From the NCBI RefSeq assembly GCF_000739615.1, contig NZ_BATP01000007.1:62001-126000 (forward strand): 64,000 bases of DNA, written 5' to 3'. The position numbers and the translations under genes were made by a program. Below the pieces are notes generated by a model. It did not search any database and was not told the DNA's origin. It saw only the letters and a program-made list of their open reading frames with translations. Positions 4,801 to 43,057 of the stretch are shown here, piece after piece; position 1 is the first letter of the stretch; each line of letters opens with the position of its first letter. The DNA is from Haloferula sp. BvORR071. Lineage in GTDB: Bacteria; Verrucomicrobiota; Verrucomicrobiia; Verrucomicrobiales; Akkermansiaceae.

Positions 4801-5263
4801 GACGAGCCCAGCGTTTGCCCGCTCCCACCGCCTTCATCTCGGCGCGGGCATCCACCTTGTCCACATCCTCACCGGCGGCCTTGGCGAGTTCCTCCATCAA
4901 CCCCGCGGAAGCCCCGGCATCACCACCGGAAATTTCCAGCACCGTGCTCATGCGCTCCTCGATCTCCGGATGGCGGCCTTCGAGCCAACGCGCGATCTGA
5001 ACCAAGCTGATCTTGCGCAGCAAGGGACGAAGGCCGGTCAGCAAAGCCCCCACGATGGCAAACAGCCAGAGGCCGAAGAGCACCCAGCGTGCGGCCATCG
5101 GCAGCGGCGAGAAGAGGTGGTCCGCCGCCATGATTACCAGCAGTCCGCCGAGGGCCACGGTGGCGAGCAGCAAGCCGCCACGCAGCAACTGGGCCCGGCG
5201 AATGCTCGCGCGAACCGTCGCGAGGCGGCGGGTGATGTCCTGTCTAGCTTGTTCCGTGCTCAT
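1808..5263 (-). CDS. DUF4175-like large membrane protein with Gln/Ala/Glu-rich coiled coil
   Basis: 1151 residues. There are two hydrophobic segments near the N-terminus (about 28-46 and 57-76) and a third at about 153-172. A beta-rich region (about 190-500) with Ig-like character precedes a very long Gln/Glu/Ala/Lys-rich coiled coil (about 510-1000) and a Gln/Pro/Gly-rich C-terminal part. The layout matches the DUF4175-type proteins that accompany BatA/VWA genes. A perfect fourfold QGKNE repeat (bases 2652-2711) interrupts the coiled coil. The gene sits 25 bases downstream of the VWA gene and overlaps the next start, so it is translated as part of the operon. It probably spans the cell envelope as a scaffold; no enzymatic motif is visible. 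Confidence 0.8.
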   Translation of the reverse strand: MSTEQARQDITRRLATVRASIRRAQLLRGGLLLATVALGGLLVIMAADHLFSPLPMAARWVLFGLWLFAIVGALLTGLRPLLRKISLVQIARWLEGRHPEIEERMSTVLEISGGDAGASAGLMEELAKAAGEDVDKVDARAEMKAVGAGKRWARPAAVLAIMLLMLFVLWPKEAFRLVARAVTPFSNLGNAEAVKFTVRPGDVEMLEGDALQIEVSYSGSADQLDLVMVMADGKEIIQPMQHEGELWRYRMNPVRETFRYHARAGRGESDSFSVTVWPSPMMLEPRVRLGFPEYSGLLPQDEPLGRGIEAVRGTTVKLEGKLNTAVESAWVELEGKKIADGKIDAAASGGRVTFAWALDKDSSGEAVVRLKHRLGREVESLRFPVRVLEDQAPVVRWLSPLAKELRVRPDEVLGLRYEVTEDFGLASLKVESKASDKEAVSTNSDLPEKLPGSSRPFRFRGAEELSIGSLAERWPGAGEIRVRVRAEDARPKDLDGPGVGASEWLLLRIDRNAESLARQEMRAEHDGARESIEKALQATREAKDRMDWHRGEMKNEELSKDAKKHFEEARDRLAEAKENLEKLADQMQDSVHASKADEVRKAAERAAAARQELESAPLQDGQQRREEKLDSAREAAEAAMKELEKAREQMDRDRQKIEEVTRLQELAQQQKELARQAENQVAANTGEKPLPQDWQDRQHQMEEQLRQQLREQPQARAEALKDQATEARELAEQAKALSEAQKAMEEQSRQTPANAPLPEQAVQKLREELAQEQAKIAQDTAKETAEARQDLSETADVLPKAEAATREAAEAMAKKEDKAAAEAAKEAVEALKESQKEAAQQAGEAQAPSEQGKNEQGKNEQGKNEQGKNEQGKAEANPAQESQRAAELGELAERQQQVTEALQALAEGKTAEAMQDLREMQADAAADLAHDIAEMPQAEGSGHMNEAKETARQGGEQAKSAAEQAGQGKPQDAAGQHQQSAANLQRSAEALGRAAEEFAQNAAQAQGQQPEQHRANIPPKDLSQAFQSASKATGEKQQGTQSASEAAQAAQALSRAAQSARQSMQGGQPKPGQPGMPGDPQGQPGEKPDENQRTPEADPGVPPELAKLGISASDWEKIQATLKSDVGGGGAGVPEEYRGLVKKYFETMSAK
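2652..2711 (-). repeat. Coding minisatellite, 4 x 15 bp (QGKNE)
   Basis: Four perfect tandem copies of a 15-base unit (plus-strand unit tgctcgttctttccc) with a partial fifth. On the minus strand they encode QGKNE repeated inside the coiled coil of the DUF4175-like protein. Because the unit is a multiple of three, copy-number change keeps the frame. Confidence 0.95.
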
Positions 5264-33616: not shown

Positions 33617-35956
33617 TTAGAAGCTGATGTCCGCGCTCAGGAACATCGAGCGGCCCTGGCCGGGGACGAAGTGTCCACCGCCGACGCGATCGATGTATTC
33701 CTCGTCGAGGATGTTATCCACGTTGAGGCGGAAGGAGAGGTTGTCGTTCACGCGGTAGCCGGCCATCGCGTTCACGAGGAAGAAGTCCGGGGCTTCCTGG
33801 CGGGTGGCGCGGTTGTTATTGTTGTAGCGGCTGTCCACATACTGCGTGCCGAGACCCACCTGCACGTTCTTCGGCAGGTCATAGACCGCCCAAAGGCTGA
33901 AGGAGTTTTCCGGGGTATTGCTGACCTCGCTGCCGACTTCCCCATAGGCGAGCGACTTCTTCACTTCGCTCGACAGATAGGTGTAGCCGCCAAGCAGGCG
34001 GAAGTTGTCCGTGATGCTGCCGGTGAAGCCGATTTCGACGCCTTCCACCACTTGCTCGCCGGTCAGGCTCACCGAGGTAGGATCGACCACATCGGTGGTG
34101 CGGGCGTTGGTCTTCTCAGTACGGAAGATCGCGCCGCTGACCAGCAAGCGCTGATCGAAGAACTCCCACTTCGAGCCCAGCTCGATCGTCTCGTTCTCTT
34201 CCGGGTCGGTATTGAAGAGCGCCAGAGTGTTGTTGTTCGCGGCAGGTGCGGCGATGTAGGTCAGGTTCTCCGTGGCCGGGTTGAAGGAGGTGCCGTAGGC
34301 GAGATAAATGCTACCTTCCTCCACCGGCTTGTAGGTAAGCGCCACTCGGTAGCTGAACTCCGAATTGTCGCTCTGCAGCGGAGTGACCACGCCATTGGTG
34401 CGTGGTGGTGTGCCAACGTGAACGTCAGCCGTCCGCGCCGTGTAGTCCACATCATAGGAATCCCAGCGACCGCCACCGGCGAGTTCCCAGTGCTCGTTGA
34501 ACTTGATCGTGTCGAAGAGGTAGAGCGCCGCCGTGTCGGAGACGGTCTCCGTAATCGCACCGTTGCGGCGGATGACGCCTGCGTAAGGCAGGTAGTTGTT
34601 AGGTCCGAACAGTTGGGTGATCGGGTTCGCCGCGGCACCGCCGGTAGCCGGGTTGAAGGCACCACGACCGTAGTTGGTGGACTTCTCGCGGCCCACTTCA
34701 AAGCCACCTACCAGCTTGTGCTCAAGCTTGCCGGTCTCGAAGTCGTAGCGGATATCCGTCTGGCTGAAGATCGCGGTGTCGATCTGGTCGCGGGACTGCA
34801 ACTGCTGGGTCAGGCGAGTATCGTTGTAGTTGACGACGCCACCCGGTGCGCTGGTGGAGATGAAACGCGGCGCGGTGGTGATCGAGTCGCGGTCGTTGCG
34901 GCCGAAGCGCAGGGTGCTGCGCAGCTTCAGGCAATCGCTGAAGTCGTGCTCGAAGATCGCGGTGATGATGTCCGTGTTGATGTCTTCGTAGTCACGGTTG
35001 AGGTTGCCGTAGTAGTTCCGCCACAGGTATTCCGGCGGTGCTCCGGAAGGCAGGCCGGTGTTGTTGTTCGTCGTGGTCGTGCCGCCGGTCGCGGTCGGCA
35101 CTACGGAGTCGCGCGGGATCCAGGGAATGCCGTAGTCCGGCACGTTGTCCTGCTCCTGGTGCAGGTAGTTCACCGTCAGGCGGGTGTCCGTGCCCAAGCC
35201 GAAGGCGATCGAGGGAGCGATGCCCCAGCGCTCGTTGTTGACATGGTCGCGGCCCGGGATGTCCTGGTTGTGATACATGCCGTTCAGGCGCACCGCCGCG
35301 CCGTTCAGGCCCGGGATGGTCTGGTTCACGTCAAAGGTGCTGCGGAAGAAATTGTCCGAACCGCCGCCCAGCATCAGGCCATACGAGTTCTCGTTGGTCG
35401 GCAGCTTGGTCACGATGTTGATCGAGCCGCCGGTGGACCCGCGGCCGGTGCTGGCCGAGGCCGGGCCCTTGGTCACTTCCACCTGCTCGATGTTGAAGGA
35501 GTCGCGGGTGTAGCCGCCGCTCGCGGCGTCGCGCATGCCATCGACAAAGATGTCCGAGCGAGCCGCGAAGCCGCGGATCGAAAGGTTGTCGCCCGCCGGA
35601 CCGCCGCCGCCTTCACCGGCTTGCATCGAGATGCCGGGCACGTTGCGCAGGATGTCGCGCAGGCTGGAGGCGTTCTGCTCCTTGATCACTTCCTTCGGCA
35701 CCACGGTCACGGTCTGGGCGATGTCGCGCAGCGGTTGGGTCTGCTTCGGCGATTGCAGGCGCTCGGGCTTGTAGAGGGCCTGATCCTTGTTGGCGCTGAC
35801 CACCACTTCGGAGAGATCTTCCTTCTTCTGAGGACCCTCTTCCTTCTTTTCGGCGGGAGCCGGAGTTTGGGCGGCGAGCTGGCCAACGGCGAGGAGAGCG
35901 CCGGTCACGGCGAGGCCTTCGGGGCGCAGGCGGAGGGAGTCGGAGTCGTTTTTCAT
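33617..35956 (-). CDS. TonB-dependent siderophore receptor
   Basis: 779 residues from the ATG at 35956 with a signal-like segment ending VGQLAAQ. A possible TonB box (DLSEVVVSA) lies at about 46, followed by the plug: [40 protein letters not shown] and [20 protein letters not shown] long 22-strand-type beta barrel ends in an aromatic C-terminus (LSADISF). It matches the siderophore-receptor subfamily in length and plug motifs. It lies divergent from PiuC, with PepSY downstream, so it is likely iron-repressed. No siderophore synthesis genes are near, which points to use of foreign siderophores. Confidence 0.95.
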
Positions 35957-36001
35957 AGGGTCAGTCGGAAGCAGAGGAGCGCGGTGGCCGCGCCAGAACT
36001 G

Positions 36002-36018
36002 TTGCGACTGCGTCTCAA
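36002..36018. promoter_or_regulatory. Possible Fur-like operator
   Basis: 17-base imperfect dyad TTGCGACT-G-CGTCTCAA (6 of 8 arm positions pair). It lies 46 bases upstream of the TonB-receptor start and in the gap to the divergent PiuC gene. Its 7-1-7 symmetry is that of Fur sites, but the bases match the enterobacterial consensus only loosely. Confidence 0.4.
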
Positions 36019-36152
36019 TAGCCAATCCTAGTCAAAACAAAAAAACTCGAACGCTGCGATATGGCAATCTGGCGCTAGCCGGGGGGCGAGATTCGTTCCC
36101 CGGCGGCGGAATCGGCTTGGCCCCCGCGTCCGAAAATGGGCAGAGAAAGCGC

Positions 36153-36845
36153 GTGATCGTTTGCATCCCCGACGTCCTGAGCCCTGAGAAGACCAAGGAG
36201 TTCCGCCGTGAGCTCGATGCCGCGGACTGGGAGGACGGCAAGTCCACCGCCGGCCACATGGCGGCCAAGGCCAAGGACAACGTGCAGATCCCGGCGACCC
36301 ATCCGGCAGCCCGGCTGGTGGGCGAAGGAATCATGCGGGCGCTGACGATCAACCCGACCTTCATGTCGGCCGCGATCCCACTGCATTTCCTTCCGCCGAT
36401 GTTCAACCGCTACTCGGGCGGCCAGACCTACGGCACCCACATTGACTCCGCGATCCGGCAGATTCCCGGCACCGGCCACCGGATCCGCACCGACCTTTCC
36501 TGCACCTTGTTCTTCTCCGAGCCGGACGAGTACGACGGCGGCGAGCTGGTGATTGAGGACACCTACGGCAGCAAGTCGGTGAAGCTCCCGGCGGGCCACA
36601 TGGTCCTCTACCCTGCCACCAGCCTGCACCGGGTCACGCCAGTAACCCGCGGCAGCCGGCTCTGCTCCTTCTTCTGGGTGCAGAGCATGATCCGCTCCGA
36701 CGAGCAGCGCTCAGTCCTCTTCGACCTCGATCTGGCGATCCAGCGACTCACCGCCAACCTCCCGGACAATAACCACGCGAACCAATCCGCGGTGCAGTTG
36801 ACCGGTGTTTACCACAACCTGCTGCGGCAGTGGGCGGACCTGTGA
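36153..36845 (+). CDS. piuC: PiuC/YbiX-type Fe(II)/2-oxoglutarate hydroxylase
   Basis: 230 residues from the GTG at 36153, where homology begins ([11 protein letters not shown]). The PKHD-type hydroxylase motifs are present: [18 protein letters not shown] with the HxD iron pair, [46 protein letters not shown] with the distal His and the oxoglutarate-binding Arg, and [13 protein letters not shown] at the end. The length equals that of Pseudomonas PiuC. An upstream in-frame TTG at 36117 adds unconserved residues. PiuC genes usually lie beside TonB siderophore receptors, as here. Confidence 0.95.
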
Positions 36846-36859
36846 AGGGTTGAGCCCCT

Positions 36860-37255
36860 TCAGGCCTGAGCCATGGCCAGCAGATAAAGGGTAAGCGCGG
36901 TCAAGGCCCCGACAAAGGCGAGGGCTGGGAATGCCAAGGCGCGCGCGGCACTGATCAAGCGCGCGAGCGCCAGCAAGATCGCTACCAAGGCAAGCAGCAC
37001 CACAGCAACGAGCGCGCGGTCGAGGTCCATGTCGAGGATCGCGGAGCGCAGGGAAGCAGGCAGCTTGGTCTCCGGGATCTTGGACAGGAGATCCCAGTAG
37101 CTGCCGCACCTAGCCAACAACCAGATCAAGCCGACGGAGAGGAGGATCGTGGCGTAGGCCGCGAAGCGTGCCGCCGGGGCTCCGTCCAATACCTTCGGGC
37201 CTTGGGCAGGCGGCTCCAGGGGCTCTGCGGCAGGAGGCTGATAGGGTTGCTCCAT
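36860..37255 (-). CDS. Small membrane protein with PYQPP N-terminus
   Basis: 131 residues. The N-terminal tail (MEQPYQPPAAEPLEPP) is Pro-rich and cytoplasmic-looking. Three hydrophobic segments follow (about 32-48, 79-97 and 105-127). It resembles the neighbouring 139-residue protein in plan (PYxPP tail then helices) and in context, so the two are probably distant paralogues. Last gene of the minus-strand run that starts at DoxX. Function unknown. Confidence 0.65.
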   Translation of the reverse strand: MEQPYQPPAAEPLEPPAQGPKVLDGAPAARFAAYATILLSVGLIWLLARCGSYWDLLSKIPETKLPASLRSAILDMDLDRALVAVVLLALVAILLALARLISAARALAFPALAFVGALTALTLYLLAMAQA

Positions 37256-37308
37256 CTGTAGTCAGCTTAGGGATTGAGGTGGTCCGTGGCAATACCGGTA
37301 GCGTCGGC

Positions 37309-37728
37309 TCAAACACCGGTCGCGCGGATGACGGCCAAGACCAAGAAACCCCAGCCGACATAGGTGCACGCATCCAAGGCCAGGGCCGACAGCACCAGTC
37401 CCAGCATCGCCAGGGTGCGGCCGGAACTCCTGAAGGACAACACGACTCCTGCGGCGGCCAAGGCCAGCGCCGCAAGGAAGGACAGCCATCCCTCGTTGCG
37501 GAGAAGCAGCCAGTCCAAACCCGGCGAGGATGGCAAGCTGTGGACTCCCAGCTCCTCCGCCATGGACGAAATCCTGCGAATGAAGTGGAGTAAGACACCC
37601 GCCCCCACCGTGGCCAGCAGGCCGAGGATCCGCGTCGTCAGGCGCGCGACCTTGCCGGCAGCGCGCCTTTTGATCACGGGATCGGCCGCCTGCGGCGGAG
37701 CGTAGGGAGATTCCATGTCCTCGCTCAT
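37309..37728 (-). CDS. Small membrane protein with PYAPP N-terminus
   Basis: 139 residues (or 135 from Met5). The tail MESPYAPPQAADP precedes three hydrophobic segments (about 31-50, 79-97 and 103-135). The first ATG overlaps the stop of the alpha-hydroxy-acid oxidase gene (ATGA at 37725-37728), so the two are translationally coupled. Function unknown. Confidence 0.7.
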   Translation of the reverse strand: MSEDMESPYAPPQAADPVIKRRAAGKVARLTTRILGLLATVGAGVLLHFIRRISSMAEELGVHSLPSSPGLDWLLLRNEGWLSFLAALALAAAGVVLSFRSSGRTLAMLGLVLSALALDACTYVGWGFLVLAVIRATGV

Positions 37729-38813
37729 GAAGCAGGCCAGATCACCGAGGGGTCGAGTTCCGCGAGGGTGGCACGCCCTGTTAGAGCCATGGCGATCTCG
37801 AGTTCGGTGCGCAGGATCTTGAGGACATGGGCGACGCCGGTAGCTCCGGCGGCGGCAAGGCCATGGAGGATGGGACGGCCAACCATGACGGCGGAGGCGC
37901 CGAGGGCGAGGGACTTCAGCACATCGGTGCCCCGGCGGATGCCGCCGTCCATAAGGATGGGTAGCTTGCCCTGGAGGGCTGCGGCGATGGAGGGCAGGAC
38001 TTCGATAGCGGCGGGGACGGTATCGAGGGTGCGGCCGCCATGATTGGAAACGATGATGGCATCGACGCCATAACTGGCTGCTTGGAGGGCATCGTGGGGA
38101 TCAAGCACGCCCTTGAGGATAATGGGCAGCTTCGTGTGCGAGCGCAGCCAAGCGAGGTCCTGCCAGGTGGGTGCTTTTGCCAAGAGGTGGCTGCCGAAGA
38201 CGCGGTCGGCGGGAGGCACCGTCTCCATGCCGCGCAGGTTCACAGGCTCGAAGCCCGGGGGCATGCGAAAGGCAGCGCGCTGCTCGCGGTTGCGCAGACC
38301 GTGGAGAGGGGCATCGGCGGTGAGGACGATGGCGCTGCAGCCGGCGGCTTCGACGCGCTTCACGAGTTCCGCGGTGAAGGCGCGGTCCGGCTGGATGTAG
38401 AGCTGGAACCATGGCGGCACGGTGGCCGCTTGGGTGATCTCTTCGATGGCCGTGCCAGCCTGGGTGCTCACGGTCATGCAGGTTTCCAGCGCGGAAGCAC
38501 CTAGAAGCGTGGCCAGTTCGCCGCTTGGGTGGAAGAGGCGGTGGAAGGCGGTGGGCGCGATGAAGATCGGGTGCGCATATTCCCGGCCGAAGAGGCTCAG
38601 TCGGGTATTCGCTTGGGAGAGGTCCCGGAAGATCCGCGGGCAGAGGCGCAGGCGCTCGAAGGCCGCACGGTTTTCACGGAGGGTGATTTCATCCGCGGCC
38701 GCGCCGGAGAGGTAGGCCCAAGCTCCGGGCTCGATCCGCTCGCGGGCGAGCGCTTCGTAGTCGTCGAGGGAGGCGACATCGGGCGGGATGGTATCGAGCG
38801 GCGGTAAGGGCAT
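37725..38813 (-). CDS. FMN-dependent alpha-hydroxy-acid oxidase/dehydrogenase
   Basis: 362 residues, the family length. Motifs in order: WAYLSGAAADE (near 33), IFIAPTAFHRL, WFQLYIQPD, LKGVLDPHDA (catalytic-site Lys), VSNHGGRTLDTVPA (active-site His, Arg) and LPILMDGGIRRGTDVLKSLALGASAVMVGRP, the phosphate-binding end. It oxidises a 2-hydroxy acid such as lactate or glycolate; the exact substrate cannot be told. The gene starts 12 bases after the DUF2063 (HvfC/BufC) gene and is followed by an overlapping membrane-protein gene. It therefore looks co-transcribed with the bufferin operon, which is unusual. Confidence 0.93.
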   Translation of the reverse strand: MPLPPLDTIPPDVASLDDYEALARERIEPGAWAYLSGAAADEITLRENRAAFERLRLCPRIFRDLSQANTRLSLFGREYAHPIFIAPTAFHRLFHPSGELATLLGASALETCMTVSTQAGTAIEEITQAATVPPWFQLYIQPDRAFTAELVKRVEAAGCSAIVLTADAPLHGLRNREQRAAFRMPPGFEPVNLRGMETVPPADRVFGSHLLAKAPTWQDLAWLRSHTKLPIILKGVLDPHDALQAASYGVDAIIVSNHGGRTLDTVPAAIEVLPSIAAALQGKLPILMDGGIRRGTDVLKSLALGASAVMVGRPILHGLAAAGATGVAHVLKILRTELEIAMALTGRATLAELDPSVIWPAS

Positions 38814-38825
38814 CGCGCTGCGACG

Positions 38826-39737
38826 CTAGCAGAGGGGGCAAGCGAGGGGCGCGGGCTTCTTCGTCATGATAGCGGGCTTCTCGCAAAGCCAGCCGAAGGC
38901 GGTCCAGGCGCTGAACCATTGTTGGACCTTCGCCGCAATTTGATCGGCTGCGACTGCCTCGTCCCCGAAGGCCATACCACAGGCGTTTTCGAGGGTCTCC
39001 CCTGCCCTCAGAGCCGAGAGCAAATGATAGGCCGCCGGCTGGAGGCGCTTGTAGTAAACCACCAGCTCGGAACGATGAATCGCCAGATGAACCGGGCTGG
39101 CCGCGGGCTTGGCGTGCAAGCGGAGCTTGCGGGAGCCCGCGCCCGAGGAACGGGCATTACTGGCGGCGGCGTTCTCGGATTGCTTCAGTTTTTGCAGCAG
39201 CCGGTCCACGGGGTATTGGAGTTCCAGTAGCGTGAGATAGGGCTGGAGCCCCAGCTTCATCCGCGAGGGGCGGCGGCTGGCAAACTCCACGGGGTCGATG
39301 CGCGGCCACTCGGCAGCATCGAAGGCAATCACCCGGGCCCATTCCAGCGCCGCCATGTCACGCGCAAGCGGGCCATGGGAACCCAGCAGCTCCGGATGGG
39401 CGACGATGAAGGCGGACAAGCCCTGCCCCAAATCGCGGAGATTCCAAGAAGCCGAGCCGCAGGCATCAAGGTAGGCAATGGCCAAGCGCTCAAACCTGCG
39501 TTCACCGAGCACGGCCGCAAGACCGCCGAAGTCATCCCCAAAGGAGCCTAACAGACGCCACCAGTACTGCTGGTTGTAGATCTGCAGGCGATCCTTTGCA
39601 GCGAGCCGCGCATTCGGCTTCACGAACTCGGCGGCCACGGCATGGCCTTCGCGGCGCATGGTTTCACCGGGGCCGAGTGGGCGCATGATCGCGCCGGCCA
39701 AGGCGGCTTGAAAGCGGGCGAGCGTGCTCATATCCAT
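38826..39737 (-). CDS. HvfC/BufC-type DUF2063 RiPP partner protein
   Basis: 303 residues (301 from Met3). The N-terminal DUF2063 domain has LQIYNQQYWWRLLGSFGDDFGGLAAVLG (about 49-76) and DLGQGLSAFIVAHPEL (about 97-112). The C-terminal half (PVHLAIHRSELVVYYKRLQPAAYHLLSALRAGETL) is the winged-helix-like region of the same family. This protein binds the precursor and presents it to the MNIO enzyme. It begins immediately after the stop of the MNIO gene (39738), so the two are coupled. Confidence 0.92.
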   Translation of the reverse strand: MDMSTLARFQAALAGAIMRPLGPGETMRREGHAVAAEFVKPNARLAAKDRLQIYNQQYWWRLLGSFGDDFGGLAAVLGERRFERLAIAYLDACGSASWNLRDLGQGLSAFIVAHPELLGSHGPLARDMAALEWARVIAFDAAEWPRIDPVEFASRRPSRMKLGLQPYLTLLELQYPVDRLLQKLKQSENAAASNARSSGAGSRKLRLHAKPAASPVHLAIHRSELVVYYKRLQPAAYHLLSALRAGETLENACGMAFGDEAVAADQIAAKVQQWFSAWTAFGWLCEKPAIMTKKPAPLACPLC

Positions 39738-40583
39738 TTAAGCGGCCGCCGCGGAGGCAGGCAGGAAGCGATTGGCCTTGAGGGCCTCGGTGTGGACCTC
39801 CTCGAAACTGGGGATCTTGTCGTCCCACTCCAGCAAGGTGGCCACCCGGCCACAGCGCTGCATGGCGAGCTCGTAGAGAGCCCAAACCGGATCGATCACG
39901 GGGTGATCGTGGGTATCGAGGATGTACTTCTTGAATTCGGTATGCCCGGCGAGGTGGGTTTGCGCGACCCGCCCGGGAGGCACGGCATTGACGTAGTCCC
40001 GCGGGTCAAAGCCGTGGTTGCGGGAGGAGACGTAGATGTTGTTCACGTCGAGCAGGATTCCACAGTCCGCTGCCTCCACCACTTCATTCAGGAATTCCCA
40101 CTCCGTCATCTCCGAGAGATGGAACTCCGCGTAGCTGCTGACATTCTCAACCGCCACCGGCAATTCCAGGAAATCCTGGACTTCGCGTACGTTGCGGGCG
40201 GTGGTCTTCACCGCTTCCCAGGTGTACGGCATTGGCAGTAGATCGTGGGTGAAGCGTCCATCGACGCTGCCCCAACAAAGATGATCGCTTACCCATGGCG
40301 TCTTGGTGCGCTTGGTCAGAGCCTTGAGCTTCTTGAGGTGATCACGATTCGGCCGGGCAGTGTTGCCGAAATACATCGAGACCCCGTGCTGGACCACGCG
40401 ATACTGCTCGAGGATCTGATCGAGAACCGCGAGAGGCCGGCCAGCTTCCCCCATGTAGTTTTCCGAGATGATCTCGAACCAATCCACCACCGGCTTCTTC
40501 TCGAGGATGTGCTGGTAGTGCGGGATGCGCAGGCCGATGCCCACGCCGTAGTCCTGGAAATTCGTGAAGCGGGATGCAGTCAT
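39738..40583 (-). CDS. MNIO (DUF692) enzyme, HvfB/BufB type
   Basis: 281 residues. It is a TIM-barrel multinuclear non-haem iron oxidase (DUF692). The motifs are GVGIGLRIPHYQHIL (start), WFEIISENYMG, VQHGVSMYFG, VSDHLCWG, VAVENVSSYA, GILLDVNNIYVSS and HLAGHTEFKKYILDTHDHPV; the His/Asp/Glu residues in these supply the iron cluster. Related enzymes convert precursor cysteines into oxazolone/thioamide-type copper ligands. The neighbouring Cys-rich precursor (40660-40980) and DUF2063 gene support that reaction here. Confidence 0.95.
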   Translation of the reverse strand: MTASRFTNFQDYGVGIGLRIPHYQHILEKKPVVDWFEIISENYMGEAGRPLAVLDQILEQYRVVQHGVSMYFGNTARPNRDHLKKLKALTKRTKTPWVSDHLCWGSVDGRFTHDLLPMPYTWEAVKTTARNVREVQDFLELPVAVENVSSYAEFHLSEMTEWEFLNEVVEAADCGILLDVNNIYVSSRNHGFDPRDYVNAVPPGRVAQTHLAGHTEFKKYILDTHDHPVIDPVWALYELAMQRCGRVATLLEWDDKIPSFEEVHTEALKANRFLPASAAAA

Positions 40584-40614
40584 GGCGATGCTTTGTTAGA
40601 GAGAGAGAAGGACC

Positions 40615-40648
40615 GCAAGGCTCCGGTGGGGAGGATCCGGAGCCTTGC
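40615..40648 (-). promoter_or_regulatory. Perfect hairpin between precursor and MNIO genes
   Basis: 12-bp perfect stem GCAAGGCTCCGG (40615-40626) / CCGGAGCCTTGC (40637-40648) with a 10-base loop, 12 bases after the precursor stop. On the minus strand it is followed by a pyrimidine tract (CCTTCTCTCTCTCT) rather than T-only. It fits an attenuator or stabiliser that would let the precursor be made in excess over the enzymes. Confidence 0.7.
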
Positions 40649-40659
40649 AGGGAAAAGGA

Positions 40660-40980
40660 TTACTTCTTCTCGGTTTCCTTTTCCTTGTCCTTGTGAACCG
40701 GCTTGCCGTCCTTCATGGCGCAGCCGCCCTTACCCTTGCAGGAGTTTTTGCCAGCGCAGCCGTTGTCGCCACCCTTGCAGCCGCCCTTGCCCTTGCAGCC
40801 ATTCTTGCCCTTGCAATCGTGGGTCTCGCCCTTGTCTTCCTCGGCCTGGATGCCGGCGCTGAAGGCGCTGCCGCTCTTCTGCTGCGCGCCGGCGGTATTA
40901 CCCACCTTGGCGAGGGCGAATCCGCCGCCCATGATTCCTGCGATGGCGGCACTGGCGATGATGGTCTTGTTGGTCTTCAT
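40660..40980 (-). CDS. Cys/Lys/Gly-rich bufferin-type RiPP precursor
   Basis: 106 residues from the ATG at 40980. The N-terminal 30 or so residues are a Sec-type leader (MKTNKTIIASAAIAGIMGGGFALA). The core contains six Cys in a repetitive context: HDCKGKNGC, KGKGGCKGG, DNGCAGKNSC and KGKGGCAMK. The Lys/Asp/Glu-rich tail is KPVHKDKEKETEKK. This is the plan of HvfA/BufA precursors, except that the usual EGKCG repeats are replaced by CKGKxxC-type units. It lies between DoxX and MNIO genes. The product is expected in the periplasm or outside as a metal (probably copper) binder. Confidence 0.88.
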   Translation of the reverse strand: MKTNKTIIASAAIAGIMGGGFALAKVGNTAGAQQKSGSAFSAGIQAEEDKGETHDCKGKNGCKGKGGCKGGDNGCAGKNSCKGKGGCAMKDGKPVHKDKEKETEKK

Positions 40981-41082
40981 GTCGTTTGTCTTTCTGGTTT
41001 CGGTTGGTTGGACCCGGCTGATGCCGGGATGGTTCTCCCGCAAGGACACGCCACCGTGGCGGCCCGTTACGGGTGAAGGGAT

Positions 41083-41592
41083 TCAGGCCACGGCGGGACG
41101 TGCCGCGGGCTCCGCCCGGAACTTGCGGGCGAGAAGATGATCGAGGGAGAAGGCGCCGGGTCCGAACACGAGGACCAGCAGCGAGGCGAAGAGGAACTGG
41201 AAGGGCGCAGCGCTCACGAAAGCGTCGGAATCACCGAAGATGCCTTTTACCGCATCGAGGTCCGCCGTGACGTAGGCGACGATCATGGTGACGATCAGCG
41301 GGATCGCCGTAAGGCGGGAGGCCAAGCCAAAGAGGAGCAGGAGGCCGCCGAAGCACTCGGTGCTGGCGGCTGCCAGCGCATTCACTTGGGGCAGCGGGAT
41401 CCCGAGATCCTTGAAGTAGTCCGCGACCTCCGGCAGCTTGTGGAGCTTGCCCCAACCGGTATGGCAGAATTGCCAGCCCCAGTAGAGACGAACGGCCAAC
41501 AGCAATGCGGATTGGGTGAGCGAATGCCCCGCGGCGGCGGTGAGGAGATTATAGCCGCGGCGGCCGGGTTCGAGGATGGGAGTTGCCTTCAT
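41083..41592 (-). CDS. DoxX family membrane protein (HvfX-like)
   Basis: 169 residues with four hydrophobic segments. The DoxX motifs are LLLAVRLYWGWQFCHTGWGKL (about 30-50), the GL-rich helix 2 (AASTECFGGLLLLFGLASRL) and the last helix FLFASLLVLVFGPGAFSLD. DoxX proteins accompany bufferin and Hvf loci. First gene of the minus-strand run; its start faces the sigma factor gene with 122 bases between. Confidence 0.9.
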   Translation of the reverse strand: MKATPILEPGRRGYNLLTAAAGHSLTQSALLLAVRLYWGWQFCHTGWGKLHKLPEVADYFKDLGIPLPQVNALAAASTECFGGLLLLFGLASRLTAIPLIVTMIVAYVTADLDAVKGIFGDSDAFVSAAPFQFLFASLLVLVFGPGAFSLDHLLARKFRAEPAARPAVA

Positions 41593-41714
41593 CTATCCGG
41601 GGCGACGAAGCAGCCCGGATTTTGATTGCGCGCTTTTCGGAAAAATTTTGCGCATGCTCCGATGGGGACTCGGGCGGATTTCCGGTTTGCCTCATTCTAG
41701 CGCGGCGGCTACCC

Positions 41715-42305
41715 ATGCAGGCATCGCGGGCCGAGTGCCCGCCGCTTCTCTTGGAAAGCGCCCTCCCAGATCCCGCACCGACCGAAGCCGAGCTACTGCA
41801 ATCCGGCTTCCGTTACGCGCTTGCACTGACCCACCATCATGAGGAGGCGGAGGATCTGGTGCAGGAGACCTGGCTGAACCTCTGCCGCCGCTACGGCCGC
41901 GTGGAGAACCGCGCGGTGCTCTTCACCGCACTGCGGAATCTCTACATCGACCAATGCCGGCGGCGGAAGCTGGTCCACTTCGATTCGCTGGATGATGCGG
42001 AGATCAACGAAGTCCCGGAAGTCCTCGTGGACGAGCCCTGCGTGAAGGGCGAAATTGCCGCACTGCTTGGCCAACTGAAACCCGGCGAGCGCGAGGTGAT
42101 CTTCCTGCACTACTACCAAGGCCACACTGCCGAGGAGATCTCCCAACTCAAGGGCCAGAGCCGAGGTACGGTTTTGAGCCTGATCCACCGCACGATCGCC
42201 AAACTTCGCCAGCTGGGCGAGAACGCAGCCGGAGCGGTCGCCCGCAATCAACTGCTGCTGTTCTTCGTTGTGCTGATCAGCATGGCGTTTTTCCTGATCC
42301 CCTAG
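41715..42305 (+). CDS. ECF RNA polymerase sigma factor with C-terminal membrane helix
   Basis: 196 residues from the ATG at 41715 (an upstream ATG at 41583 would add unconserved residues over the promoter region). Region 2 is HHEEAEDLVQETWLNLCRRY (about 42-61) with ALRNLYIDQCRRRK; region 4 is LLGQLKPGEREVIFLHYYQGHTAEEISQLKG then SRGTVLSLIHRTIAKLR. After region 4 comes a hydrophobic segment (LLLFFVVLISMAFFLIP, about 178-194), which is not part of a usual ECF factor. It is divergent from DoxX/precursor/MNIO and followed by a probable anti-sigma gene, so it likely controls the bufferin operon. Confidence 0.9.
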   Translation: MQASRAECPPLLLESALPDPAPTEAELLQSGFRYALALTHHHEEAEDLVQETWLNLCRRYGRVENRAVLFTALRNLYIDQCRRRKLVHFDSLDDAEINEVPEVLVDEPCVKGEIAALLGQLKPGEREVIFLHYYQGHTAEEISQLKGQSRGTVLSLIHRTIAKLRQLGENAAGAVARNQLLLFFVVLISMAFFLIP

Positions 42306-42322
42306 AAAAGAGCCACCACCCC

Positions 42323-43057
42323 ATGTCCGACTTCCGCAAACAAGTCCGCGATCACTACGACGCGCAATCGCTCCCAGCCGAGAAGCTGGAAGCGATCCTC
42401 GCGCGCGGTCGCGAGGCGGCAGTGGAAGGCGAGAAAACCGTCGAGTTCCCGGCGACGAAGAAGCGCTCTTGGGCGCGCTATGCGGCAGCCATCGCCGCGG
42501 CGATCGTGCTCGCCCTGGGCGGCACCTGGTGGATGAAGCGGGATGTCGGCGAGGTCTCCCTGGCCGCCCTGCCACCGCGGGTGATCGAGTTCTTCGCGAA
42601 GGCGCCGAATTTACACGAGGCGATCCAGGACAAGACCGAGTTGCGAAATTGGCTGATTTCCCAAGGCGCTCCCGCGGACATCAAGATCCCGACCAGCCTT
42701 CAGACGCTGCAGAGCGCCGCCTGCAGCGTGGTGGATGTCCAAGGCCGCAAGGCCTACCTCTCCTGCTACGTCCGCGAGAAAAATTCGGCAGGGGGCGTGG
42801 AGCTGATCCACCTGCTGGTGGCGCGCAGCGAGGACTTCTACGACCAGCCGCGGGGCAGAGAGGTGGTGGTCAAGGAAGAGGATGGCTGGAGCTTCGCCTC
42901 ATGGACCGAGGGTGACACCATCTACACCCTGGCCACCGCAGCGCCGAAGGAGAAGCTGGAGCCTTTCCGGCCACAGGCGGGCCTGCCGGTGGAGAAGCAG
43001 CGTCATCTCTCTGGCCTTGAGGCGGCCGTTTCGGGAATGGCGGCTTTGGCGCGCTGA
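42323..43057 (+). CDS. Probable membrane anti-sigma factor
   Basis: 244 residues. The N-terminal cytoplasmic part (1-48) precedes a single membrane helix (about 50-66; AAAIAAAIVLALGGTWWM) and an extracytoplasmic domain of about 175 residues. Two Cys in that domain (SAACSVV and YLSCYV, about 15 residues apart) could form a disulfide or bind metal. It starts 17 bases after the sigma gene. Position and topology fit an anti-sigma factor; I see no ZAS zinc motif. Confidence 0.7.
   Translation: MSDFRKQVRDHYDAQSLPAEKLEAILARGREAAVEGEKTVEFPATKKRSWARYAAAIAAAIVLALGGTWWMKRDVGEVSLAALPPRVIEFFAKAPNLHEAIQDKTELRNWLISQGAPADIKIPTSLQTLQSAACSVVDVQGRKAYLSCYVREKNSAGGVELIHLLVARSEDFYDQPRGREVVVKEEDGWSFASWTEGDTIYTLATAAPKEKLEPFRPQAGLPVEKQRHLSGLEAAVSGMAALAR

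Follow-up and report, generated by a model that had tools for sequence, protein, structure and literature searches.

How is a BufA2-type bufferin operon switched on? Among peptides made by MNIO enzymes, the bufferins make up the largest families described so far (PMC12452194), and the portions of the bufferin literature available to us contain no description of how the Buf2 branch is induced. The question is raised by positions 38826-43057 of a 64,000-nucleotide stretch of the genome of Haloferula sp. BvORR071 (Verrucomicrobiota; contig NZ_BATP01000007.1, positions 62,001 to 126,000), hereafter the window, where doxX-bufA-bufB-bufC lie divergently from the gene of an extracytoplasmic function (ECF) sigma factor and that of a single-pass membrane partner, denoted ASF. 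The operon is of the bufferin type and BufA2-like, its divergent neighbours form an ECF sigma/anti-sigma-like pair, and we consider it probable that this pair is a dedicated switch governing it. Judging from the DNA, the last codons of the sigma gene resemble a promoter that depends on the sigma factor and would drive the anti-sigma gene. The features concerned are the following, in window coordinates.

41083..41592, minus strand: doxX, HvfX-like, first gene of the operon (PF07681, 75.7 bits)
40660..40980, minus strand: bufA, BufA2-like precursor of 106 residues with six Cys and an ATG start (NCBIfam BufA2)
39738..40583, minus strand: bufB, MNIO enzyme with EWDD at the substrate site (PF05114, 357.4 bits)
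38826..39737, minus strand: bufC, DUF2063 (PME type 1) partner (PF09836, 50.8 bits, cut-off 27.2)
41583..42305, plus strand: open reading frame (ORF) of the ECF sigma factor with a short hydrophobic tail, likely ATG at 41715, start uncertain (Sigma70_r2, Sigma70_r4_2)
42323..43057, plus strand: ASF, presumed anti-sigma factor with one transmembrane helix and a predicted RseB-like periplasmic domain (homologues, alignment, model)
41605..41629, minus strand: promoter-like element GCAATCA-N13-TTCGT before doxX (-35 GCAATC, 16 bp, -10 CGTC), 12 nt to the doxX ATG
42244..42268, plus strand: second copy of the element, inside the 3' end of the sigma coding sequence (RNQLLLFFV), 54 nt to the ASF ATG

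A sequence-only reading of this region had proposed a bufferin-type operon for a ribosomally synthesised and post-translationally modified peptide, with DoxX, a six-Cys precursor, a DUF692 MNIO and a DUF2063 partner on the minus strand, and a divergent ECF sigma factor followed by a protein of anti-sigma topology. The ORFs and the Pfam and NCBIfam scores bear out the four operon genes, both regulatory genes are present as described, and the recurrence of the divergent layout and the shared promoter-like element back control by the sigma factor. The window operon shows the A-B-C order, the DUF2063 partner and the DoxX of a bufferin cluster. BufB passes the NCBIfam MNIO_BufB cut-off (NF050167; 345.3 bits, cut-off 310), DoxX scores slightly below that of HvfX (77.7 bits, cut-off 80), and BufC does not reach that of HvfC (35.3 bits, cut-off 142). 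The sigma factor is above the Pfam cut-offs for both Sigma70 region 2 (31.8 versus 24) and region 4 (43.2 versus 25.7).

The operon and the sigma factor are connected by a short DNA element. Alignment of the ECF-doxX intergenic region of four genomes revealed a conserved GCAATCAAA-N11-TTCGTC immediately before doxX, which we read as a putative ECF promoter, GCAATC-N16-CGTC. With a fifth genome, added after this alignment, the element is found before doxX in 5/5 genomes read, and the doxX ATG follows it by 10-12 nt in Luteolibacter. In the window's genome the longer form has a single exact match; with up to two mismatches tolerated there are four, one of them in the sigma tail, against two for the control. 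The core GCAATCA-N13-TTCGT has nine matches in four whole genomes, eight of them at the locus, and none for the reversed control; it occurs before doxX in all four, at the end of the sigma gene in three, about 1 kb past ASF once in L. arcticus, and elsewhere once in L. soli. The layout itself, ASF-ECF<>doxX-A-B-C, is shared by the window, three further loci (L100, L101 and L201), whose genomes we take to be those of Luteolibacter soli, L. arcticus and Luteolibacter sp. LG18, and Chthoniobacter flavus (L008), i.e. by all five genomes in which a tailed sigma factor was readable together with its DNA; two of the genomes sharing the locus belong to the same genus as the window.

The second copy of the element gives the tail of the sigma factor a new meaning. 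Among the best 120 of 464 sigma homologues, 119 carry near their C-terminus the motif [CRGS]-N-[QHR]-x4-[FLI]-V, the exception ending earlier, and this motif is the translation of GCAATCA-N13-(T/C)TCGT. The residue preceding the Asn is Cys in 64, Arg in 40, Gly in 14 and Ser in one, all of which have an NGC codon, and the residue preceding the Val is Phe in 111, Leu in seven and Ile in one, all of which have an NTC codon. The restriction before the Asn is the one to be expected from the DNA, in which GC-AAT requires an NGC codon. Tail codons read in five genomes are (C/T)GC AAT CA(A/G) ... (T/C)TC GTN, with the same spacing as in the doxX element; in nine genes of the window, AAT and CAA each account for 30% of the synonymous codons. 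The ASF start codon of C. flavus immediately follows the sigma stop codon, 13 nt past the element. The sigma factor had earlier been called membrane-tailed. A hydrophobic tail exists, but counted from the conserved Asn it comprises 11 residues in 81 of the 120 homologues and 19 in 25, and the description does not fit the family; we dropped the membrane anchor because an 11-residue tail is too short for it. A protein motif can be conserved because a promoter is hidden in its codons, and can then be mistaken for a membrane anchor.

ASF is the candidate sensor. Among its 48 homologues, 33 were aligned, and C134, C148 and H163 are invariant in these. When two ASF models were compared with known folds, RseB and MucB occupied the first six places, a relationship that the sequences did not show, and the periplasmic domain is thus predicted from models to be RseB-like. 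ASF belongs to no Pfam family.

We propose the following mechanism. At rest, ASF would tether the sigma factor to the membrane. Stress in the periplasm, for which copper or another thiol-reactive agent is the likeliest cause, would act on the RseB-like domain through the invariant Cys pair and release the sigma factor, which would then read GCAATC-N16-CGT(C) before doxX-bufA-bufB-bufC and within its own last codons before ASF; the copies are present in the DNA, and binding of the sigma factor to them is presumed. The response would yield the peptide, its enzymes and DoxX, plus more of its own brake. Because the sigma gene of the four Luteolibacter-type genomes is preceded by no exact copy of the element, the loop would be one of pure negative feedback there. 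Two Opitutaceae relatives, whose sigma factors are 48-51% identical, lack the tail and have an ASF partner, carry the element upstream of the sigma gene. By analogy with published bufferins and captophorins, BufB and BufC would modify the Cys residues of BufA, and exported BufA would buffer periplasmic metal. It is tempting to speculate further that the 3' end of the sigma gene carries two codes and is under double selection, serving both as a 25-bp promoter for ASF and as a C-terminal peptide gripped by a shortened ASF, and that the RseB-like Cys-pair domain reads copper or thiols directly. This would make the locus an undescribed self-limiting metal switch, and its element one of two promoter codes that govern the BufA2-type operons of Verrucomicrobiota, partly from a distance. 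We advance this extended scheme tentatively, its chances being somewhat short of even.

Several observations weigh against parts of this proposal. One of five tail copies retains the C that ends the -10 CGTC, and the second half of the tail copy of L. soli begins CTCGT. Third positions of the R, N, Q, F and V codons agree at a rate of 0.74 (42 pairs), compared with 0.54 for the other codons (1178 pairs), a weak contrast as the pairs are non-independent. Ten further genomes contain 20 core matches, of which only five are at sigma/ASF loci (three of six in C. flavus, one of three in G315, the single one in G145), with one control match. Tail and element are both absent from seven sigma loci that are more distant. 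Concerning ASF, comparison with one E. coli RseB sequence gave an hhalign probability of 0.1, and a search of PDB sequences found no match. No known anti-sigma domain was recognised in it, the NCBIfam 'antisigma' model NF052375 scoring 17.5 bits against a cut-off of 100, and we infer from gene order and topology alone that it is an anti-sigma factor. Lastly, induction by copper is our supposition, with the position of an element near a DsbD-type gene in C. flavus as the sole hint specific to the locus.

The spacer of the tail element is hydrophobic on translation (W/L, L, L, L/F), unlike the spacers before doxX and beyond what a promoter needs, which indicates that the tail peptide may also be under selection. 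Could it have been conserved as a peptide alone, to touch the membrane, dock onto ASF or mark the protein for degradation, and resemble the doxX element by chance? Besides the conserved hydrophobic positions inside the spacer, this would agree with the fact that the tail accompanies the short type of ASF, the sigma factors paired with longer ASF proteins in L013, L071, L102 and L103 having none. However, noncoding DNA before doxX carries identical bases at identical spacing, the choice of Cys, Arg, Gly or Ser before the Asn is what an invariant GC in the DNA would allow and obeys no obvious rule for peptides, and 11 residues make up the tail in most of the 120 homologues, so that we regard a purely peptidic role as unlikely. 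A stronger competitor concerns the signal: the switch might answer stress on thiols or the envelope in general, or other metals, rather than copper specifically. An RseB-like domain as predicted for ASF would suit such a role, as would the DsbD-type gene by an element in C. flavus and a WCPFC protein in L. arcticus, and Caulobacter sigma-F/NrsF responds to chromium and cadmium via Cys residues (PMC3511200, in the part available). Published bufferins and captophorins are, in contrast, tied mainly to copper in the accessible text of PMC12452194 and PMC13097082, and we give the broader signal a substantial chance, not quite an even one.

It might also be argued that the sigma/ASF pair lies beside the buf operon by chance and controls other genes. 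A wide ASF profile finds such proteins in at least 80 of 387 genomes of the phylum, a lower bound, and mostly at a distance from MNIO genes. Against this, the same layout recurs in five genomes and the element is present before doxX. A profile of the short ASF type matches 4 of 195 genomes of the family, every one at the buf locus. MNIO genes above the family cut-off are found in 33 of the 387 genomes, and by coordinates ASF lies within about 3 kb of one in eight of these 33 (G000, G009, G037, G045, G073, G132, G142 and G197), four of which contributed sequences to the ASF profile. A fortuitous association is therefore very unlikely in our view. Even less credit is due to the idea that the flavin mononucleotide (FMN)-dependent dehydrogenase encoded after bufC is a further peptide-tailoring enzyme, comparable to MftD for mycofactocin. 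It shares the strand of bufC at a gap of 12 bp and scores 435.6 bits with PF01070 and 236.7 bits with the MftD model, whose cut-off of 470.85 it does not reach; however, no relative was found in the flanks, some of them short, of the best 80 of 570 related loci or of further sets of 13, 20 and 1 loci. From these comparisons it is not a conserved operon part. The sequence-only reading had included it by starting the system at 36860; this range holds for the operon and its regulators, but the segment 36860-38813 is unsupported as part of the system. The dehydrogenase gene occupies 37725-38813 and is followed by two small membrane proteins. Beyond them, 33617-36845 encodes a TonB-dependent siderophore receptor (Fiu-like, below cut-off) adjoining a PKHD-type 2-oxoglutarate-Fe hydroxylase, an iron-uptake pair.

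The reading that we favour is still that of a dedicated ECF sigma/anti-sigma switch controlling a bufferin operon of BufA2-like type. Its type is given by the precursor and the enzyme. The precursor had been considered unlike the described EGKCG type, and EGKCG repeats, which characterise HvfA/oxazolin precursors, are indeed absent from it; it is nevertheless close to a described group, that of the Cys-Lys precursors with BufA2, and its enzyme carries the matching Asp. The N-terminus of BufA is signal-peptide-like, as judged by eye, and its Cys contexts are DCKG, NGCKG, GGCKG, NGCAG, NSCKG and GGCAM, four of six being Cys-Lys. The comparison with BufA and HvfA families by hidden Markov models that had been recommended gave a match to NCBIfam BufA2 (NF050166) with an E-value of 5.2e-7, at 29.8 bits, and the curated cut-off of 60 is not reached. 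Seven of eight scanned relatives similarly score 30-38.5 bits, all below the cut-off, and the eighth, of another kind, has no BufA2 match. The related loci come from Acidobacteriota and Verrucomicrobiota, and 78 of the best 80 of 570 have a precursor match, the usual pattern being HxCKG-NxCKG-GGCK-NGCKG-NSCKG-GGCAT. Exactly six Cys are present in 46 of the 85 listed precursor ORFs and four in 12, some counts being inflated by over-long ORFs. EWDD is found in the window enzyme and in 76 of these 80 loci (DA in three, DQ in one), and its second Asp is aligned with a Phe of the Histophilus somni MNIO 3bww, a stand-in for FonB. At the site of FonB-Phe250, Lys-Cys MNIOs are reported to have Phe, and Cys-Lys MNIOs, including that of BufA2, to have Asp (PMC13097082, available in part); the window enzyme has the Asp of the Cys-Lys captophorin MNIOs. 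Because of the Cys-Lys layout, the sub-cut-off BufA2 scores and this Asp, the precursor is by sequence BufA2-like and of the Cys-Lys type, neither an EGKCG-type precursor nor a new class.

Loci beyond the divergent arrangement extend the picture. Their gene order is variable, A-B-C-doxX-ECF-ASF or ECF-ASF-doxX-A-B-C. Within the best 80 of 570 loci, ECF genes number 0.62 per 10 kb up to 3.5 kb from bufB (32 loci) versus 0.084 farther away, as measured with a profile made from sigma factors of the same loci and hence not independent; the contrast persists with the window sigma factor as sole query, the counts dropping to 16 near and two far. ASF is found near bufB in five of these 80. Loci with the longer ASF type, which belong to a related sigma lineage, have a common element of their own, GGAATAA-N13-17-CTC. 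A survey of 104 loci (the best 80 of 570, L100-L103 and L177-L196) gave 34 occurrences, of which 23, in 17 loci, immediately precede bufA, doxX or the ECF gene; four control patterns gave 0/5, 0/6, 1/23 and 0/9. The pattern was derived from some of the surveyed loci and is no independent test for those. Nine of the 17 loci (L057, L066, L069, L185, L186, L187, L188, L191 and L196) have no ECF gene within 5 kb. Since the element is present and an ECF gene is out of this reach, its occurrence there suggests control from elsewhere in the genome, and more generally that clusters without a nearby sigma gene may also be under sigma control.

Other observations were made along the way. A copy of the first element lies about 170 bp before the DsbD-type gene of C. 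flavus (DsbD_N and DsbD_TM; L008:3109-5157), whose thioredoxin-like end is in another frame (4940-5236). The third copy in L. arcticus (L101:13784-16169) precedes genes for a small Cys-containing peptide, a possible outer-membrane protein with no Pfam match and the WCPFC protein, whose AhpC-TSA match is below cut-off. These possible further targets, each a single case, hint at stress on thiols or by metals in the periplasm. In many Acidobacteriota loci, among them L010, L015, L019, L028, L029, L035 and L058, doxX is followed in the buf operon by a different kind of ECF gene, which begins where doxX ends, with no ASF of the window family; a small protein is encoded 3' of the ECF gene in L182 and L195. 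The MNIO proteins of Acidobacteriota and Verrucomicrobiota (L003-L082) are up to 76-78% identical to the window BufB, and such identity across phyla may reflect transfer between them. The window's genome also has a second MNIO cluster, on contig C31 (L107:8517-9122), with similar ones in L104, L105, L106, L108 and L109. Its MNIO reads EWDG, its precursor is built from acidic/lysine-rich repeats, each containing a single Cys-Pro (DDCPGK/EDCPDK), and has no NCBIfam match at an E-value of 0.01, and no sigma or ASF match lies alongside.

Our limited literature search found no description of the arrangement in the window, and the word 'sigma' is absent from the accessible part of PMC8692599, a paper that mentions both DUF692 and Verrucomicrobi. 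As judged from sequence, what is chiefly new is that a Buf2-type branch would be under sigma control, through two promoter codes, and that an embedded promoter would account, in part or in full, for a protein tail. Two concrete promoter elements and a candidate sensor make Buf2-type regulation directly testable. Among the closest known systems are the bufferin-2 clusters (PMC12452194, available in part), with which the window shares the exported six-Cys precursor, the MNIO, the DUF2063 partner, DoxX and the A-B-C order. The window differs from them in a precursor below the BufA2 cut-off and in its sigma/anti-sigma genes, as that text reports sigma factors with Buf1 clusters, not with Buf2. Both promoter elements bear on this statement, to the extent that its Buf2 profile captures these precursors. 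The Cys-Lys captophorins (PMC13097082, in the text available) have in common with the window the Cys-Lys motifs and the Asp at the FonB-Phe250 site, the modification being predicted here from the genes. For fontiphorin, PMC13097082 reports a loss of 4 Da per Cys and an absorbance near 300 nm.

On the regulatory side, Caulobacter sigma-F/NrsF (PMC3511200) likewise combines an ECF sigma factor with a negative regulator in which two Cys are important for the metal response, and a conserved promoter sequence precedes every target gene there, as the element does before the presumed targets here. ASF, in contrast, has no match to the NrsF Pfam family, one transmembrane helix and a predicted RseB-like domain, and the putative promoter lies inside the sigma gene. 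Corynebacterium glutamicum sigH-rshA (PMC3489674) offers a sigma-dependent promoter that drives the anti-sigma gene alone, as we propose for ASF; in the present family, however, it is fixed in the last sigma codons and visible as the tail motif. Neither a promoter fixed as a protein motif nor an RseB-like sensor domain was found for these two systems in the parts of the two papers available. With the control of sigma-E by RseA-RseB and MucA-MucB, the pair shares a predicted periplasmic sensor fold on the anti-sigma side, but here the transmembrane part and the RseB-like domain are in one protein with an invariant Cys pair, and no likeness in sequence was found. Finally, an extension after region 4 is also a feature of ECF sigma factors such as the copper-linked CorE; the known extensions are domains, whereas that of the window family consists of 11-19 mostly hydrophobic residues with no Cys-rich domain.

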